From a virus, in IMG/VR virus record IMGVR_UViG_3300035704_000397, positions 1 through 38,631 of that record: a stretch of 38,631 nt of DNA; one strand, written 5' to 3'. Made by a program: the position numbers and the translations under genes. Each line of letters opens with the position of its first letter. Position 1 is the first letter of the stretch. The notes under the pieces were generated by a model, which saw only the letters and a list, made by a program, of their open reading frames with translations, was not told the DNA's origin and did not search any database. This document shows positions 14,798 to 34,817 of this stretch, piece after piece.

Positions 14798-16064
14798 TTA
14801 TAGGGCAGCGGGGGGCTTCTTGTACCAACCAGTGATGACGCCTACCAGGTGGACAATGTTTTGCGTCCGCATGATCGGTGCGGACGCAGAATTCGGCTCG
14901 AAGTCGCTGCTGGCGTCGCTGGTACGCCAAATGCTGTTTTCGGTGACCGGTGCCGCCATGTGCCGGTCGAGGCGCTTGAAAAACTCGGTGATGTCGTCGA
15001 TCTCCGCCGGGTTGTCGCCCGTGCGCAGTTCGTGAAACACCCCGCCGAGCACGCGCAGCATGCCCACCGAGCCGAGCAGTGATGTGCGGCGCAGCTGTTG
15101 GGCTTTGGTCAGCTCCCCGGCTGTGCGTTCCGCGGGGTCGTCCTCGGTGAGCGCGGCGAGGTCGGCGAAGGCGTTGGAGATGGTGTCCAGGAAGTCTTTG
15201 ACCTGTTCGATCACCTCGCCGTCTGTCAATGTCTGCTCTGCCTTTTTGCTGATGCGACCGCCAGCCCCGGCGATGACCGAGCGGGTGATGTCGGCGACGT
15301 GTTTGGCTCCCATGAGGTTGGGGTTTTTCAGGGTCATGCGGTCTTGCTCGGCATCGACCCGGTCCTTTAGCAGCGGGTGGTCGATGATGTCGGAAAGGGT
15401 TCGGTTGGCGACCTTGTAGCTGTCGAAGCGGGCGCGGACGGCGCTGCTGATGCCCTTGGCGTTGTCGGCGACGTCAACGAACATTTGCTGGGCTTTGATC
15501 GGGTCCGGTTCCACGTAGATGTCCAGGCCGACGTACTCGGTTTTCAAGCGATTCATCCGGCCGGTGAGCCTTTCACGCTCGGCTTTGAGCTTGGCTTCCT
15601 TTTCCGCGCTGACCCTGCGTGCCAGCTCTCGGTCGACGGCGGAGATGGCGTTGGTGATGCGCTGCTTTTCGATGGCGACGCCGAGCACGCGGTGCTGGCC
15701 GTCGATGGTGTGCAAAGAGGAGATGCCGCCGATCGCCCACGGGACGGTGATGTAGCCGACGTCTCCGCGCTCGTCGACTTTTTCGAAGGCGCAGCCTCCG
15801 CTGTCGCGGGCCAGGAGGGCGGGGGCGACCCAGTCCTGTTTGGTATCGAGGTACTCGCCGAAATGCTTGGCGTGGAGGCGGTCAACCTTGCGGTTGTCCT
15901 TATCGATGTTGTTCGGGTCGGGGACGGGCAGGATGGTAGGAAGGTCGAGGAGGCTAACGCGCGTGGTGTAGACGGCACGGCCGCCTTGCGTGGTCTTAAT
16001 GGCCAGGTATGTGCTGGCGTCCTGCGGCCTGGACAAACGGAGGGGATCAACGTCGATGCTCACG
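14798..16064 (-). CDS. DndB-like DGQHR-domain protein, 421 aa
   Basis: From GTG 16064 (GGAG 7 nt upstream) the protein starts MSIDVDPLRLSRPQDASTYL. The DGQHR motif is in SSLHTIDGQHRVLGVAIEKQ near residue 125. A long charged helix follows (SAEKEAKLKAERERLTGRMN), then AQQMFVDVADNAKGISSAVR, matching DndB-type proteins. In Dnd systems DndB is a regulator, and DGQHR domains are ParB/Srx-related. No dndC, dndD or dndE is present, so here it is more likely part of the recombination cassette: its start overlaps the RecT stop (GTGA). Confidence 0.75.
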
Positions 16065-16923
16065 TAACACTCCGATTCGGGTCGGGATTCGCTGTTTCTT
16101 CGGCTGGCGGCGGTGCGGTTGCGGCTTTGATCCGCTCCCCAGCTTCGGCGATTTTGTTGAGCAGCTCGGTGTCGTTGCGCCGCATTCCTTTGGCCAGTGC
16201 CCACACTTTTTTGAGCGCCTCTGTGTCGCCAGCCCATTCAGCGTCGTGGATCAGCATGTCCCAGCTGGGTTCGCTGACCACTTCCTCCTCCCGGTGGGAT
16301 TCGATGACCACCGGAGCGGGCTGCGGATTGTCGAGGTGCTGCAATTCCTCCTCGATATACACACCGGACAGTCGCCGCGGGAACGCTTTGCGCCGGGCCA
16401 GTGCTTCGGCGCATTTCCCGATCTGACCGGCGGGCATGTTCGCCCACATCGACGTGGGGGTGCCGTCTGCCTTCGTTTGAACGTATTCGCGAAAGTGAGC
16501 GACGGCATGAACGGGGTTGGGCCAGTCTTTGCGGTACACCGTGAACCGTGCGGCGACTGGTGGTTCATCGCCTGTCCACACGTCACGCCAATGCCCATCG
16601 GGGCCGCACCAGTCGGGGCCCGAAATTCCCCCGAATTCGGGGTGCTCCTCACTCTTGGAACGGAAACCGTCAATACCGACCTGAATGGTCCATTTTTTGC
16701 GCTGTAGCTTCCCGTCCCACCTGCCAATCAGATAAATCTCTTTGTTGAATGGGTCCAATCCCATTTTCTGGGCGACGTGTAAGAACACGAGCTGGTCGCC
16801 GTGGGGGGCCTCATCGATACCGAGCTGGGCGAGCCCGGCTTTTTGCTGGTCGGTCCACTCGACCTGGTCAGGGCGTACCGCTAGGGAACCCTGCACGGTT
16901 GCCACTTCGGTGCCGCTGCTCAT
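16060..16923 (-). CDS. recT-like: RecT/Bet-family single-strand annealing protein, 287 aa
   Basis: RecT anneals complementary single strands made by a partner exonuclease. Family features: DEAPHGDQLVFLHVAQKMGL followed by DPFNKEIYLIGRWDGKLQRK, the signature lysine/tryptophan region KKWTIQVGIDGFRSKSEEHP, and MWANMPAGQIGKCAEALARR then KAFPRRLSGVYIEEEL. The C-terminal third is variable and helical. ATG 16923 overlaps the exonuclease stop (ATGA), the classic order exonuclease then annealase, and it is coupled downstream to the DndB-like gene. Confidence 0.88.
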   Translation of the reverse strand: MSSGTEVATVQGSLAVRPDQVEWTDQQKAGLAQLGIDEAPHGDQLVFLHVAQKMGLDPFNKEIYLIGRWDGKLQRKKWTIQVGIDGFRSKSEEHPEFGGISGPDWCGPDGHWRDVWTGDEPPVAARFTVYRKDWPNPVHAVAHFREYVQTKADGTPTSMWANMPAGQIGKCAEALARRKAFPRRLSGVYIEEELQHLDNPQPAPVVIESHREEEVVSEPSWDMLIHDAEWAGDTEALKKVWALAKGMRRNDTELLNKIAEAGERIKAATAPPPAEETANPDPNRSVT

Positions 16924-29364: not shown

Positions 29365-29411
29365 AACAGCGACTCCGGCCGCTGGGTCGGTTCAAAGTCT
29401 TGATCGCTCAT
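29361..29411 (-). CDS. 16-aa mini-ORF coupling the integrase to the next gene
   Basis: ATG 29411 overlaps the integrase stop (ATGA) and MSDQDFEPTQRPESLL ends in a TGA overlapping the next ATG 29364. A peptide of this size may serve only to pass ribosomes from integrase to downstream genes. Confidence 0.35.
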   Translation of the reverse strand: MSDQDFEPTQRPESLL

Positions 29412-30592
29412 GCGGAACGCCTCCGTGGCTTCTTGGCGCTGGGGGCTTCCTCGATGGGGGTCACGCTGGCGGTGATCATTTTGGACAGATCCCCAGCGAT
29501 TCGCTTGTCGTCGGCCAGCGCGGCGTGCTGGTAGCGCAACGCGGCGCTGGCACTGGAATGCCCGAGCCGGGCCATGAGCTGTTTGAGGGTCGCGCCGGTC
29601 GCGGCGGCGAGGGTGGCTCCGGTGTGCCGCAGATCGTGGAACCGCAAATCGGGCCGCCCGGCCGCTTCCCGCGCGGGGTAGAACACCCGGTACAGGGTGG
29701 ACGGGGCGAGCTGCAAACCATTGCGGGCACCGGGCCACAACAGACCGTCCGCGCCGGGCGCGGTGTGTTCCAGAAGGTGGGCCTGCACCACCGGCATCAG
29801 GGCCGCCGGGATGGCTACCGTCCGCTTACCGGCCTTCGATTTGGGGTCCTTCACTAGCCGTCCGGCGTTGGTGCGGACCACGCCGCGCCGGACGTGGAGG
29901 ACCCCTTCGGTGACGTCGACATCGGAGCGTCGCATCTCGGCCAGCTCACCGAAACGCAGCGCGCACCACGCCGCGAGCAGCATCATCAGCCGGTACCGGG
30001 CGGGCACCGTCTCCACGATCACCGCCAGCTCGGGCAGCGTCGCGGGTACCGGGTCCACCACCGTCTCCGTTTGACCGCCAGCGGTGACGCGGCACGGGTT
30101 CGACGCGAGCAGCTCGTCGTCCACCGCGGTTTTGCATATCGATTTCAGCAATGCGTAGGAATGGGCTTGCGCGGTGGGGCCGGTGCGTTTGCCGAGGTCG
30201 GCGTACCACTTGCGCACATCGGCTGGCCGGATCGCGTCGACCGACTTCCTGCCGAATACGGGATACACGTGGTCGCGCAGTAATTGCTGGTAATGATCCC
30301 GAGTACGCACGGCGAGGCGCCGGGTCTCCAGCCACGCGTCGGCGAATTCCCGCAGCGTCTTCGGTGCGGCCTTCGGCACGGCGGTGGGCGGTTCCCACTC
30401 TTTGCGGACGATCTCCGCGCGCTTGACGGTCAGCCACGCTGACGCCGCGCTGACGGTGTCGAAGGTCAGCGGGCTGCCGTCGCTGCGGTGGCTGTTGTAC
30501 CGGCGGCCTTCGGCGGTGTACCGGGCCTGGTAGCGGCCCGACTCCAGTACCCGGACACCGGCGGGGAGCTTGCGGCGCTTGGGTGTTGCCAT
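29408..30592 (-). CDS. int: Tyrosine site-specific integrase, 394 aa
   Basis: Catalyses integration and excision at a tRNA att site. An N-terminal arm-binding region (LPAGVRVLESGRYQARYTAE) is followed by a SAM-like core-binding domain (LREFADAWLETRRLAVRTRD). The catalytic domain has R1 in CALRFGELAEMRRSDVDV, a Lys in DPKSKAGKRTVAIP, HxxR in LRFHDLRHTGATLAA, GHSS and the nucleophile Tyr in ALRYQHAAL. ATG 30592 excludes an upstream extension that crosses non-coding sequence; its ribosome site is weak (GGAAG). The 30764-30791 tRNA fragment lies 172 bp upstream. It heads the leftward operon. Confidence 0.92.
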   Translation of the reverse strand: MATPKRRKLPAGVRVLESGRYQARYTAEGRRYNSHRSDGSPLTFDTVSAASAWLTVKRAEIVRKEWEPPTAVPKAAPKTLREFADAWLETRRLAVRTRDHYQQLLRDHVYPVFGRKSVDAIRPADVRKWYADLGKRTGPTAQAHSYALLKSICKTAVDDELLASNPCRVTAGGQTETVVDPVPATLPELAVIVETVPARYRLMMLLAAWCALRFGELAEMRRSDVDVTEGVLHVRRGVVRTNAGRLVKDPKSKAGKRTVAIPAALMPVVQAHLLEHTAPGADGLLWPGARNGLQLAPSTLYRVFYPAREAAGRPDLRFHDLRHTGATLAAATGATLKQLMARLGHSSASAALRYQHAALADDKRIAGDLSKMITASVTPIEEAPSAKKPRRRSA

Positions 30593-30763
30593 GTGAGTGA
30601 CCACTTCCGATGGGTCAGGAGTGGACACGAGAGGACTTGCGTGCCCAATCCGTGCCCAATCGTTTGCCCACGTATGGTAACTCATGACCATGGTTGAGCG
30701 ACACACGCAGTGGGTCGCCGCACGTCAGCGGGGGTTTGCCCTGGTAGCGCTAGGTGTCAAGAT

Positions 30764-30791
30764 ACTGGTTCGATCCCAGTATCGCCCACCA
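30764..30791 (+). other. tRNA 3'-end fragment, candidate attR core
   Basis: ACTGG-TTCGATC-CCAGT is a T-arm, followed by ATCGCCC, A and CCA. No matching D-arm, anticodon arm or 5' acceptor (GGGCGAT) stands upstream, so it is only the end of a tRNA gene, possibly tRNA-Val by resemblance. The next integrase promoter side makes it the expected crossover duplicate. Confidence 0.7.
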
Positions 30792-31015
30792 GCGTTACCG
30801 CAGGTCAGAGGCCCTTTTGAAACGGATCACCGGGTTTCGTGCCCAATATGAGCCCAATGTGTTCAGGCGACACCACTGATGATGATCAAGCCCCACTAGA
30901 CCTCAAGTTCACCCAATTGCTATCGTGCGCAACCGGAAGGCCAGCAACGCGGCCTGCTGCCAGGCGGACCACGGTCACGCATGCTGAGCGCAGGACCCCC
31001 TTGTGGTTTTCCACC
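30792..31015. other. Gene-free stretch beyond the att site
   Basis: I see no gene here. TGAGCCCAATGTG near 30848 resembles the GTGCCCAAT at 30643-30650 by the integrase start, so integrase arm sites are possible. Otherwise unremarkable before the structured leader begins at 31016. Confidence 0.3.
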
Positions 31016-31171
31016 GCTGGGAAGGCTTTTCCGGGGCACAGTCGATGCAACCGGCTGTCGGTGGGGCCTTCCCAGCACCCTGATCCACCGCAGCGCCGGG
31101 CGTGACCCGAGGACCCTGCGGACCACCAGGGCAGCGTGCCTGCCCTCGCGTCCGTGAGGAGCACCACCGCA
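31016..31171 (+). ncRNA. Structured leader RNA A upstream of an HTH gene
   Basis: Stem 1: GCTGGGAAGGC (31016-31026) with GCCTTCCCAGC (31066-31076), enclosing 39 nt. Stem 2: CGGG-CGTGA-CCCG (31097-31109). Stem 3: TGCGGAC (31117-31123) with GTCCGTG (31150-31156), enclosing AGGGCAG (31128-31134) and CTGCCCT (31140-31146). AGGAG follows stem 3 directly, before GTG 31172. Leader B at 31647-31797 has the same order with compensatory changes. Confidence 0.65.
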
Positions 31172-31378
31172 GTGACCACCACCAGCAGCCGCCCGAAAGA
31201 GCGCCGCTACCTCTCCGTCGAATCCGCCGCCATCTACGTCGGTGTGTCCACCCAAACCATCCGGCGCAGCATCGACTGCGGCGAATTGCCCGCGTACCGG
31301 TTCGGCAAGAAGCTGGTCCGGGTCCAGCAATCCGACCTCGACGCGATGCTGCGCCGAATCCCCACCGTGAGCCAATGA
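31172..31378 (+). CDS. Excisionase/MerR-type helix-turn-helix protein A, 68 aa
   Basis: RRYLSVESAAIYVGVSTQTI then RRSIDCGELPAYRFGKKLVR and VQQSDLDAMLRRI is the excisionase-family helix-turn-helix with wing. GTG 31172 gives exactly the same length (68 aa) as the paralogue at 31798. GTGAGGAG precedes the start within the structured leader. Such proteins bend DNA or regulate promoters; being close to the integrase it could be an excisionase, though it lies outside the att site. ATGA overlap with the next gene. Confidence 0.75.
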   Translation: MTTTSSRPKERRYLSVESAAIYVGVSTQTIRRSIDCGELPAYRFGKKLVRVQQSDLDAMLRRIPTVSQ

Positions 31379-31629
31379 CACCGCACGACCCCGATGACTG
31401 TCAGGAGTGCGGTCGGCGGGAATCCGTGGTGTACCGGTGCACGTCGTGTGAATACACGTTCGACGTTCCGGGTGAGTACCGGTATTTCGCTCAGGGCCGT
31501 GGGCACTGGCATGTCGCTGACAACGACGCCCGGTTCAAACACCTACTGGCCGGTCACGTCGGGTCGCACTCGACGGCCGCCGGATTCGTGCCACTCGCGG
31601 GCGACGTTAGTGCACACGACGGGACGTAG
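31375..31629 (+). CDS. Zinc-ribbon protein A, 84 aa
   Basis: MTPHDPDDCQECGRRESVVY, then RCTSCEYTFDVPGEYRYFAQ and GRGHWHVADNDARFKHLLAG. Two CxxC pairs 10 residues apart form a zinc ribbon. It overlaps the HTH stop (ATGA). In the second module the position is filled by a different Cys/His-rich protein (32001). Confidence 0.65.
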   Translation: MTPHDPDDCQECGRRESVVYRCTSCEYTFDVPGEYRYFAQGRGHWHVADNDARFKHLLAGHVGSHSTAAGFVPLAGDVSAHDGT

Positions 31630-31646
31630 CTGCTACCGTCACTGGC

Positions 31647-31797
31647 GGGGAAGCGCCCGCGGGCCCTGATCTATCACCGCCACGCGCGGTTCGCTTCCCC
31701 ACCTAATCCAAGCCGTGGTGCCGGGTGAGATCCCGTGGACCCCGCGGACACACACAGGACAGGTCTGTCCTGAGTCCGCGAGGAGTCCACCGCGAAG
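31647..31797 (+). ncRNA. Structured leader RNA B, paralogue of leader A
   Basis: Stem 1: GGGGAAGCG (31647-31655) with CGCTTCCCC (31692-31700). Stem 2: CGGG-TGAGAT-CCCG (31722-31735). Stem 3: CGCGGAC (31743-31749) with GTCCGCG (31774-31780), enclosing CAGGACA-GGTC-TGTCCTG (31755-31772). AGGAG follows at 31781. Stems 1, 3 and the inner stem differ from leader A yet stay paired. Confidence 0.65.
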
Positions 31798-32004
31798 ATG
31801 CTCACAACCAGCGATATCGCCACCACCAGCAGGCTGATCAGTCTGGGTGACGCCGCCGCCTTGCTCGGTGTGCACGCCCGGACAGTGCGCCGCTACATCA
31901 CCTCTGGCCGGATCCAGGGCTATCGGGTTGGGCCACGCCTAGTGAAAATCGACGCCGCCGACATCGACAAACTGATGCGGCCGATCCCGCCCCTCGATTC
32001 ATGA
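31798..32004 (+). CDS. Excisionase/MerR-type helix-turn-helix protein B, 68 aa
   Basis: TSRLISLGDAAALLGVHART then VRRYITSGRIQGYRVGPRLV and KIDAADIDKLMRPI. Same fold and length as the product of 31172-31378, clearly a diverged duplicate (SxxxAAxxxGVxxxTxRRxI shared). ATG 31798 is preceded by GAGGAG inside leader B. The stop overlaps the next ATG. Confidence 0.75.
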   Translation: MLTTSDIATTSRLISLGDAAALLGVHARTVRRYITSGRIQGYRVGPRLVKIDAADIDKLMRPIPPLDS

Positions 32005-32249
32005 GCGACCACGGGGAGCACACCGCCGGTGAATGCCCTTGCGGTCACCACCACGACCACGCCGACTGCCTGACCGAGCTGCGCAATGCGTTCGTTGGCC
32101 AGCACCTCGACGTCACCATTTCGACTAAGCCGCCGGTCGTGTTGGGCCCTTTCACGCTCGCGCCGTTCGTTTGCCCGCACGGTGTGCGGTACTGGGCTGA
32201 ACCGACCGGTGAGCAGCTCGCTGCGTGGGTCACTAACCGGATCCCGTAG
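32001..32249 (+). CDS. Cys/His-rich small protein B, 82 aa
   Basis: MSDHGEHTAGECPCGHHHDH then ADCLTELRNAFVGQHLDVTI and PFTLAPFVCPHGVRYWAEPT. The CPCGHHHDH and CPHG motifs suggest metal binding. The second half (PFxCPHGxxYWxEPT) is a frequent ending in small actinomycete proteins. Overlaps the HTH gene (ATGA). Confidence 0.6.
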   Translation: MSDHGEHTAGECPCGHHHDHADCLTELRNAFVGQHLDVTISTKPPVVLGPFTLAPFVCPHGVRYWAEPTGEQLAAWVTNRIP

Positions 32250-32838: not shown

Positions 32839-34206
32839 GTGACCATCCACGTCCATGATTTCAGAGCACCGACGACGATGCCGAGTCTGGTCGGTGGGGA
32901 TGCGGTGGTGCCGCTCGTCACCGGCGGCACCACCCGATATGTGAACCTCGACAACGCCGCGAGCAGTCCATGCCTGACGGCAGTGAGAGACAAGGTCGTT
33001 GAAACGCTAGAGCTTTACGCCTCCGTGCACCGAGGCACCGGGTGGAAATCCCACGTCACCACCGAGCGGTATGAGCAGGCACGCGGCGTTGCTGGGTTCG
33101 TCGGTGCGCGACCCGACGATGCGGTCATGTTCGCCGCCAACACCACCGATGCGCTCAACCGGCTCTGTTGGGCGGTAGGTGCCGAGGCCACCGTGATAGT
33201 GGAAACCAGCAACCACCACGCCAATTTGTTGCCCTGGCGGCGCTGCCGGGTCATCGAACTCCCGGTGTCGCGCACCCCGGACGAAGCATTCGACCGGATC
33301 GAGCGCGCGTTACGCCGCTCACGGTGCAAGCTCGTGGCGATCACCGGTGCTGGCAACGTGACCGGCGAGCTGTGGCCCATCCGGGAGATCGCCGATCTCG
33401 CGCACCGCTACGGCGCGCGGATCGTGGTCGACGCCGCGCAACTCGCACCGCACCACCCGATCAACATGGCCGAAGACCAGATCGACTACCTCGCTTTTTC
33501 CGGGCACAAGATCTACGCGCCGTTCGGTGCTGGTGTGCTCATCGGCCGCCCCGACTGGCTCACCAACGGCGAACCGATGATCGCTGGTGGCGGAGCTGTG
33601 AAGTACGTCCGCACCGACAGTGTGATGTGGGCTCACCGAGCCGAGGACCGGCAAGAGGCCGGTAGCCCCAACGTGATCGGCGCGGTGGCGCTCACCGAGG
33701 CCTGCCGCATCCTGCAAGCCGTGGGGATGGGCCTGCTGGCGGCCGATGAAGGGGTCCTGTTCCGCGACGCCCGTAAAGCGCTGGGCGACGTTCCGAAGCT
33801 GCGGATCTACCAACAGTGGCCCGTGCATCATCCCCGAATCGGGGTGATCACGTTCAACATCGAAGGGATGGCCTACGCCAAACTCGCCGCGATCCTGTCC
33901 GCTGAGTACGGCATCGCGGTCCGCCACGGGTGCTTTTGCGCACACCCCCTGATGGCGTCGCTGCTGGGCATTGAGGACGACCAGAGCCGATGGATCACCG
34001 CCGCGCTACGCGCTGGACGCACGGTGGCCGAGCCTGGCGGGGTCCGGGCGTCATTGGGAATCGGCAGCACTGGTGAAGACGTCACCGCGCTGGTCGACGC
34101 GCTGCACCAGATCGTCGAGAGCGGCCCCGCTTGGGCCTACGACCACACCCCCGACCACGGCCACTACTGGCCGATTTCCGACCCGCGGGAGCTGTCGTGT
34201 TGCTAG
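32839..34206 (+). CDS. Class V PLP aminotransferase, cysteine-desulfurase-like, 455 aa
   Basis: The family moves sulfur from cysteine via a persulfide. Visible motifs: NLDNAASSPC start, GTGWKSHVTTERYEQARGV, VIVETSNHHANLLPWRRC (SNHHAN of SufS/CsdA type), RIVVDAAQLAPHHPINMAED (Asp of the PLP ring), LAFSGHKIYAPFGAGVLIGR (Schiff-base Lys), and RHGCFCAHPLMASLLGIED, where the cysteines could be the persulfide site. GTG 32839 follows CCGGAGG. Nearby tRNA-Lys(TTT) and a Glu-like tRNA are substrates of s2U34 thiolation in bacteria, but no MnmA-like gene is visible. Confidence 0.85.
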   Translation: MTIHVHDFRAPTTMPSLVGGDAVVPLVTGGTTRYVNLDNAASSPCLTAVRDKVVETLELYASVHRGTGWKSHVTTERYEQARGVAGFVGARPDDAVMFAANTTDALNRLCWAVGAEATVIVETSNHHANLLPWRRCRVIELPVSRTPDEAFDRIERALRRSRCKLVAITGAGNVTGELWPIREIADLAHRYGARIVVDAAQLAPHHPINMAEDQIDYLAFSGHKIYAPFGAGVLIGRPDWLTNGEPMIAGGGAVKYVRTDSVMWAHRAEDRQEAGSPNVIGAVALTEACRILQAVGMGLLAADEGVLFRDARKALGDVPKLRIYQQWPVHHPRIGVITFNIEGMAYAKLAAILSAEYGIAVRHGCFCAHPLMASLLGIEDDQSRWITAALRAGRTVAEPGGVRASLGIGSTGEDVTALVDALHQIVESGPAWAYDHTPDHGHYWPISDPRELSCC

Positions 34207-34370: not shown

Positions 34371-34477
34371 GGGTGGTGGCGCGGTGCAGATGGAGACCCA
34401 AGGGGGCCCGCACCTCACGGTGCGCTGCTGTCGCCGGGGTGAGGAGCCCAGCCATCCCGGCAGTGCCGCACCACCTG

Positions 34478-34551
34478 TAGCGGGAGCCGGATTCGAACCG
34501 GCGACCTACAGCTTATGAGGCTGCCGAGCTACCGAGCTGCTCCATCCCGCT
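34478..34551 (-). tRNA. tRNA-Met(CAT), initiator-type body without initiator hallmarks
   Basis: Minus-strand acceptor AGCGGGA/TCCCGCT is fully paired; D-arm sequence TGGAGCAGCTCGGTAGCTCG matches actinobacterial initiator tRNA exactly as I recall it. Anticodon arm GCAGC-CTCATAA-GCTGT, T-arm GCCGG-TTCGAAT-CCGGC. It lacks the 1:72 mismatch and the three G-C pairs of initiators. CCA is not encoded. Confidence 0.8.
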
Positions 34552-34735: not shown

Positions 34736-34808
34736 GGGCCGTTAGCTCAATTGGCAGAGCAGCAGCCTTTTAAGCTGCGGGTTCTGGGTTCGAGTCCCAG
34801 GCGGCCCA
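34736..34808 (+). tRNA. tRNA-Lys(TTT)
   Basis: Acceptor GGGCCGT/GCGGCCC, D-arm GCTC...GAGC, anticodon arm GCAGC-CTTTTAA-GCTGC with TTT, variable GGGTT, T-arm CTGGG-TTCGAGT-CCCAG. All stems pair; ACC follows, so CCA is not fully encoded. Confidence 0.95.
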
Positions 34809-34817
34809 CCCCCCCCT

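Follow-up and report, generated by a model that had tools for sequence, protein, structure and literature searches.

A conserved pair of structured leaders upstream of two excisionase-like HTH genes in an actinobacterial phage

In this study, a real, non-random and conserved pair of structured leaders was found upstream of two excisionase-like HTH genes of an actinobacterial phage. The source is a 38.6-kb virus record (IMGVR_UViG_3300035704_000397), and the whole stretch of 38,631 nt is referred to here as the window. Leader A (31016-31171, + strand) and leader B (31647-31797, + strand) extend for approximately 155 nt before gene A and gene B, respectively, and their inverted repeats lie at nearly equal distances from the start codons. 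The best explanation, to which we assign a probability of roughly 0.45, is that two Xis-like regulators have their ribosome sites masked by a phage-specific structured leader. The leader pair most likely adds one more example to a type of control that is already known.

Stems of the two leaders and their conservation

Leader A begins with stem 1 (GCTGGGAAGGC/GCCTTCCCAGC, loop 39; 31016..31076), followed by hairpin 2 (CGGG/CCCG; 31097..31109) and stem 3 (31117..31156), the latter with an outer part (TGCGGAC/GTCCGTG) and an inner part (AGGGCAG/CTGCCCT; 31128-31146). The AGGAG ribosome site of gene A lies at the base of stem 3 (31157..31161), and the gene has a GTG start (31172..31378). Leader B has stem 1 (GGGGAAGCG/CGCTTCCCC, loop 36; 31647..31700), hairpin 2 with the same CGGG/CCCG arms between stems 1 and 3 (31722..31735), and stem 3 (31743..31780) with outer CGCGGAC/GTCCGCG and inner CAGGACAG/CTGTCCTG (31755-31772); its AGGAG (31781..31785) is largely paired within the base of stem 3, and gene B has an ATG start (31798..32004). 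All of these features are on the + strand. A preliminary description of this DNA had reported three stems in the same order followed by AGGAG, and every arm that it quoted is present in its place; the inner arms had been quoted out of register, and the inner stems differ at one pair.

Measured from the start codon, the perfect inverted repeats of leader A are 11 bp at -156/-95 and 7 bp at -44/-25 (spacer 5), and its outer stem 3 is 7 bp at -55/-15 with two G-U pairs included. Those of leader B are 9 bp at -151/-97, 8 bp at -43/-25 (spacer 2) and 7 bp at -55/-17. When B was shuffled with its dinucleotides preserved (n=4000), a matched stem 1 arose three times; a nested stem 3 never arose, nor did both together. 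The loop and spacer lengths of A and B differ (39/36, 5/6, 26/24 and 5/2) and the arms are retained. Such variation in loop length, together with the G-U pairs in leader A, is expected of RNA and not of a DNA operator.

The preliminary description also emphasized compensatory changes. Among 28 aligned pairs, with stem 1 aligned by hand and with the stems and the alignment chosen from the same two sequences that were later scored, none is broken and 23 are unchanged. Two pairs vary between G-U and G-C/C-G, as one-sided changes in outer stem 3, and both partners differ in three further pairs, two of them in stem 1 (GC/GC versus CG/CG) and one in the inner stem (G-C versus A-U). Pairing is therefore kept, but double changes are fewer than had been implied. 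In unconstrained simulations, all 28 pairs were kept in 0 of 20,000 runs at a divergence of 0.3 and in 0.15% of runs at a divergence of 0.14. A pair-shuffling control on stems 2-3, in which the observed covariation was equaled or exceeded in 259 of 500 shuffles, is powerless with only two sequences, and for the same reason significance of the R-scape type is impossible.

The block containing stems 2 and 3 is 79% identical between A and B, and identity is higher in paired columns (36/40, 90%) than in unpaired ones (25/37, 68%). The corresponding values are 41% for the stem-1 half of the leader (29/70 identical) and 50% for the DNA of the two genes (47% at third codon positions); the proteins share 24 of 68 residues. 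As the likeness of the leaders exceeds that of the genes, it is not accounted for by duplication of whole genes; gene-wide duplication with no excess in the stems, the explanation against which the preliminary description had set its own, was checked and does not describe these sequences. The avoidance of paired columns by the changes favors selection, whether the leaders have long been held or a cassette was copied. The pattern supports the view that the leaders are under selection beyond that acting on the genes, at least as judged from these two sequences. The shared leader would then be either kept by selection on two old genes or derived from a promoter-leader cassette copied between genes A and B. 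The earlier proposal of selection on RNA structure agrees with the excess of identity in paired columns over unpaired columns and genes, but the searches described below found no covarying homologues.

Predicted folds and the ribosome site

Relative to shuffled sequences, the predicted fold of leader B is exceptional (z -4.6) and that of leader A is not (z -1.5; an equally good or better fold was reached by 16 of 200 shuffles). In both leaders, stem 1 is stronger and better predicted than any other stem. The ribosome site of B is paired in the predicted fold, and its opening cost is high at 9.5 kcal/mol; that of A, calculated in an 80-nt upstream window, is 4.1 kcal/mol, less than the median of the control genes. 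For A, stem 3 is the minimum-energy fold in the local folding window only. The full-length leader is predicted to favor an alternative fold by 7.3 kcal/mol, with its ribosome site paired elsewhere. The earlier statement that the ribosome site sits at the base of stem 3 holds for the position of AGGAG in both leaders, but full-length A is predicted to prefer another fold.

A survey of HTH_17 leaders (n=47, start codons picked by rule) gave a median ribosome-site opening cost of 6.2 kcal/mol, compared with 4.7 kcal/mol in control genes of the same loci; the effect is modest (p 0.003 with GC matched). A stem with a T-run, as in a terminator or attenuator, was found in neither leader. An upstream leader peptide was considered and rejected: a 12-codon ORF is readable in A at ~31042, and a counterpart in B was not seen by eye. 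Possible extended -10 elements lie upstream of gene A (TGCTATCGT; 30918..30926, + strand) and gene B (TGCTACCGT; 31631..31639, + strand), and the latter would imply a transcript start at approximately stem 1. An extended -10-like TGCTAnnGT is present upstream of A, B, L082, L054 and L056; across the whole window its frequency is at chance level, and its promoter role is putative.

In the proposed mechanism, A and B would be two copies of one structured 5' leader on two different excisionase-like HTH genes, each transcribed together with its gene. With AGGAG held in the base of the last stem, translation would be kept low, and both proteins would consequently be scarce, for example in a lysogen. 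As the leaders are more alike than the genes, one signal probably opens both together; candidate signals are a protein, an RNA, or the conditions of transcription or translation at induction. The arrangement resembles cis hairpins that occlude a ribosome site, in that AGGAG of A and B is at the 3' base of the last stem and is paired in the predicted folds. It differs from that class in the weak occlusion of leader A in the local folding window.

The HTH genes, the integrase and the attP region

Genes A and B each encode a 68-aa protein of the excisionase-like HTH_17/TIGR01764 family, as the preliminary description had recognized; their TIGR01764 scores (46.9 bits for A, 44.2 bits for B) are above the curated cut-off of 28.8 bits, and both proteins are DNA-binding by family membership. 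The same description regarded them as paralogous duplicates. Duplication in the sister sense was rejected, since each protein has nearer relatives elsewhere: among 60 homologues, the best-scoring one is L082 for A and L049 for B, B ranks 36th for A, A ranks 26th for B, and the two were grouped in 0% of bootstrap trees, the tree being poorly resolved. Descent as sister genes thus does not account for the leader that they share. Each gene is followed on the + strand by a Cys/His-containing ORF without family, of 84 aa after gene A (31375..31629) and of 82 aa after gene B (32001..32249). The name "zinc proteins" given to them earlier is in keeping with their Cys and His residues, but neither has a Pfam, PHROG or NCBIfam match, and the two do not resemble one another.

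A tyrosine integrase of 394 aa (29408..30592, - strand; Pfam Phage_integrase and Phage_int_SAM_3, PHROG 1) is encoded upstream of gene A, and between them two GTGCCCAAT-type repeat pairs flank a tRNA-3'-like core. The left pair of attP arm-type repeats comprises two copies of GTGCCCAAT spaced 11 bp apart (30641 and 30652; 30641..30660, + strand), and the right pair comprises GTGCCCAAT and GAGCCCAAT at the same spacing of 11 bp (30839 and 30850; 30839..30858, + strand). The probable core, TGGTTCGATCCCAGTATCGCCCACC (30766..30790, + strand), resembles a tRNA-Val 3' end when compared with tRNA-Val(GAC) of L113/L082. Gene A, the integrase, the arm repeats and the tRNA-like core all lie within 1.8 kb; gene B is not beside att. 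The region 30641-30858 is probably an intact attP, and arm repeats on both sides of the core would indicate an unintegrated phage.

Integrases or tRNA genes with the same arm repeats at their flanks occur in L113, L116 and L117. Repeats of the GTGCCCAAT type also mark integrative elements in genomes G696 and G597, and they occur near an integrase in the IMG/VR contig L121. Relatives of the window's integrase were not found in IMG/VR. In a faecal phage record (L099, MT835972.1), an integrase 47% identical to that of the window is adjoined by an A-like HTH gene on the opposite strand, and the arrangement of the two genes there is convergent, not divergent.

The integrated element of G696 has tRNA-Val(GAC), arm repeats, a leader and an A-like gene at one end (L082/L113); on another contig (L116), an integrase is accompanied by arm repeats. 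We infer that these contigs are the two ends of one element. The phage is similar to this element in its GTGCCCAAT arm repeats and tRNA-Val 3' end; in the element, the integrase is at one end and the Xis-like gene with a three-stem leader is at the other. The L082 leader has its ribosome site in the last of its three stems. It differs from leaders A and B in its unrelated sequence, and the stretch read contains a single such HTH gene. In view of the attP context and the layout in G696, gene A stands where an excisionase would, and it may encode the recombination directionality factor (excisionase) that serves the adjacent integrase and attP. Both 68-aa proteins score above the TIGR01764 cut-off, like the TIGR01764/HTH_17 Xis proteins of phages and integrative elements, and gene A adjoins attP opposite the integrase; unlike those of Xis proteins, gene B is away from att, and the excision activity of A and B is putative.

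The window also contains phage recombination genes (RecT-like and RecE/YqaJ-like). A gene for a DndB-like protein (14798-16237; Pfam DNA-sulfur modification-associated, E 8e-26) adjoins the RecT-like gene. A phage-borne cysteine-desulfurase-like gene of the aminotransferase class V type is present at 32839-34206; its relatives in the genomes tested are only ~50% identical, and none was found in IMG/VR. The phage carries a tRNA-Met gene (34477-34551, - strand) and a tRNA-Lys gene (34736-34810, + strand).

Further copies, alternative explanations and significance

The int-alpA RNA motif and other HTH/integrase-associated motifs are likewise structured RNAs located close to an integrase and an AlpA/HTH gene. 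Leaders A and B differ from int-alpA and the other HTH/integrase motifs of Rfam 15 in having no family match: the two tRNAs were the only Rfam 15 matches in the window, and a local Rfam scan of the leaders gave no match at the gathering threshold and one chance hit only at E up to 10. Exact leader patterns had 0 hits in IMG/VR and 9 in 84,980 genomes, and a second pattern had 4 in IMG/VR; the motif preceded an HTH gene in none of these 13 hits, most of which were inside coding DNA. A covariance model search of actinomycete genomes, which the preliminary description had suggested, yielded no homologue before HTH genes. With a model of stems 2-3, no match upstream of HTH genes was obtained in 59 homologous loci and 395 Actinomycetes genomes, the seven weak hits in the 395 genomes being close to chance expectation and none of them before an HTH gene. 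A further 15 loci gave 10 weak hits (E 0.018-0.57); the two that were displayed have broken pairs and lack the inner stem. A distant DNA search of phages and plasmids gave no match to the leaders, and a search of the literature for excisionase genes with structured leaders brought up no relevant work. With no other copy found in these samples, the leader probably serves this phage alone, as a small private switch. A new cis-regulatory RNA, as proposed earlier, is still the best reading and accords with the lack of an Rfam match, but the homologues with covariation that would extend it were not found.

The main rival, which we regard as somewhat unlikely, is that the palindromes are DNA operators bound by the HTH proteins or by one phage repressor, the RNA fold being a by-product. 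It is consistent with the family assignment of the two proteins and with the likeness of leader B to its nearest relative L049: they have CAGGACA-4-TGTCCTGAG in common, with 76% identity over 25 nt, and CAGGACAnnnnTGTCCTGAG, common to leader B (31755-31779) and L049 (-109 to -85 upstream of the HTH gene), is a possible operator. Palindromes of the GGACA/TGTCC type are present in three of 60 leaders (B, L049 and L081, all among the proteins closest to B), compared with a mean of 0.9 and a maximum of 3 in shuffles. However, A and B have different half-site spacings (5 versus 2 nt, and 26 versus 24 for the outer arms), the outer arms of A need G-T to match, the 36-39 nt spacer of stem 1 argues against an operator, and the palindrome of L049 is ~65 nt further from the start than that of B. 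Both readings may be true together, with an operator inside the folded leader. The self-titrating module suggested earlier found no support apart from the inner palindrome as a possible operator for an HTH protein.

It is quite unlikely that the likeness of the leaders comes simply from recent copying or conversion of a promoter-leader cassette between the genes and not from selection on structure. The identity of 79% in the stem-2/3 block against 41-50% in the flanking DNA and genes looks like a conversion tract, and A and B, not being sister genes, would fit cassette copying; yet within the block the changes avoid paired columns and those that occur keep pairing, and stem 1, which is outside the block, stays paired despite 41% identity around it. 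A role of the stems in shielding the mRNA from nucleases or in slowing transcription, with no hiding of the ribosome site, appears improbable. The strength and good prediction of stem 1 in both leaders fit mRNA protection, as would the position of stem 1 of B at the extreme 5' end if TGCTACCGT is a promoter, but this leaves unexplained why the most conserved block is that of stem 3, which has AGGAG at its base. Inverted repeats arising by chance in GC-rich DNA are disfavored and very improbable: leader A as a whole folds unexceptionally, but shuffles and simulations fall far short of the matched places, the nesting and the retained pairs.

Masking of the ribosome site by a phage-specific leader is thus the preferred reading. 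In a broader and rather unlikely form, one leader RNA would be a phage-specific riboregulator common to two non-sister Xis-like genes, a single signal would release both at induction, and the excisionase genes of actinobacterial integrative elements would repeatedly have gained multi-stem leaders, unrelated in sequence, in which the ribosome site is masked. The leader itself has limited reach, being one private motif for which no homologues were found. If the reading is correct, the exit of the phage from the chromosome would depend on translational control through a shared leader and not only on the promoter, and coordinate control would show itself in an unusual way, by a leader kept more alike than the proteins encoded behind it. 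Masking hairpins that recur before excisionase-like genes would offer a testable idea of how integrative elements keep their excision proteins scarce.
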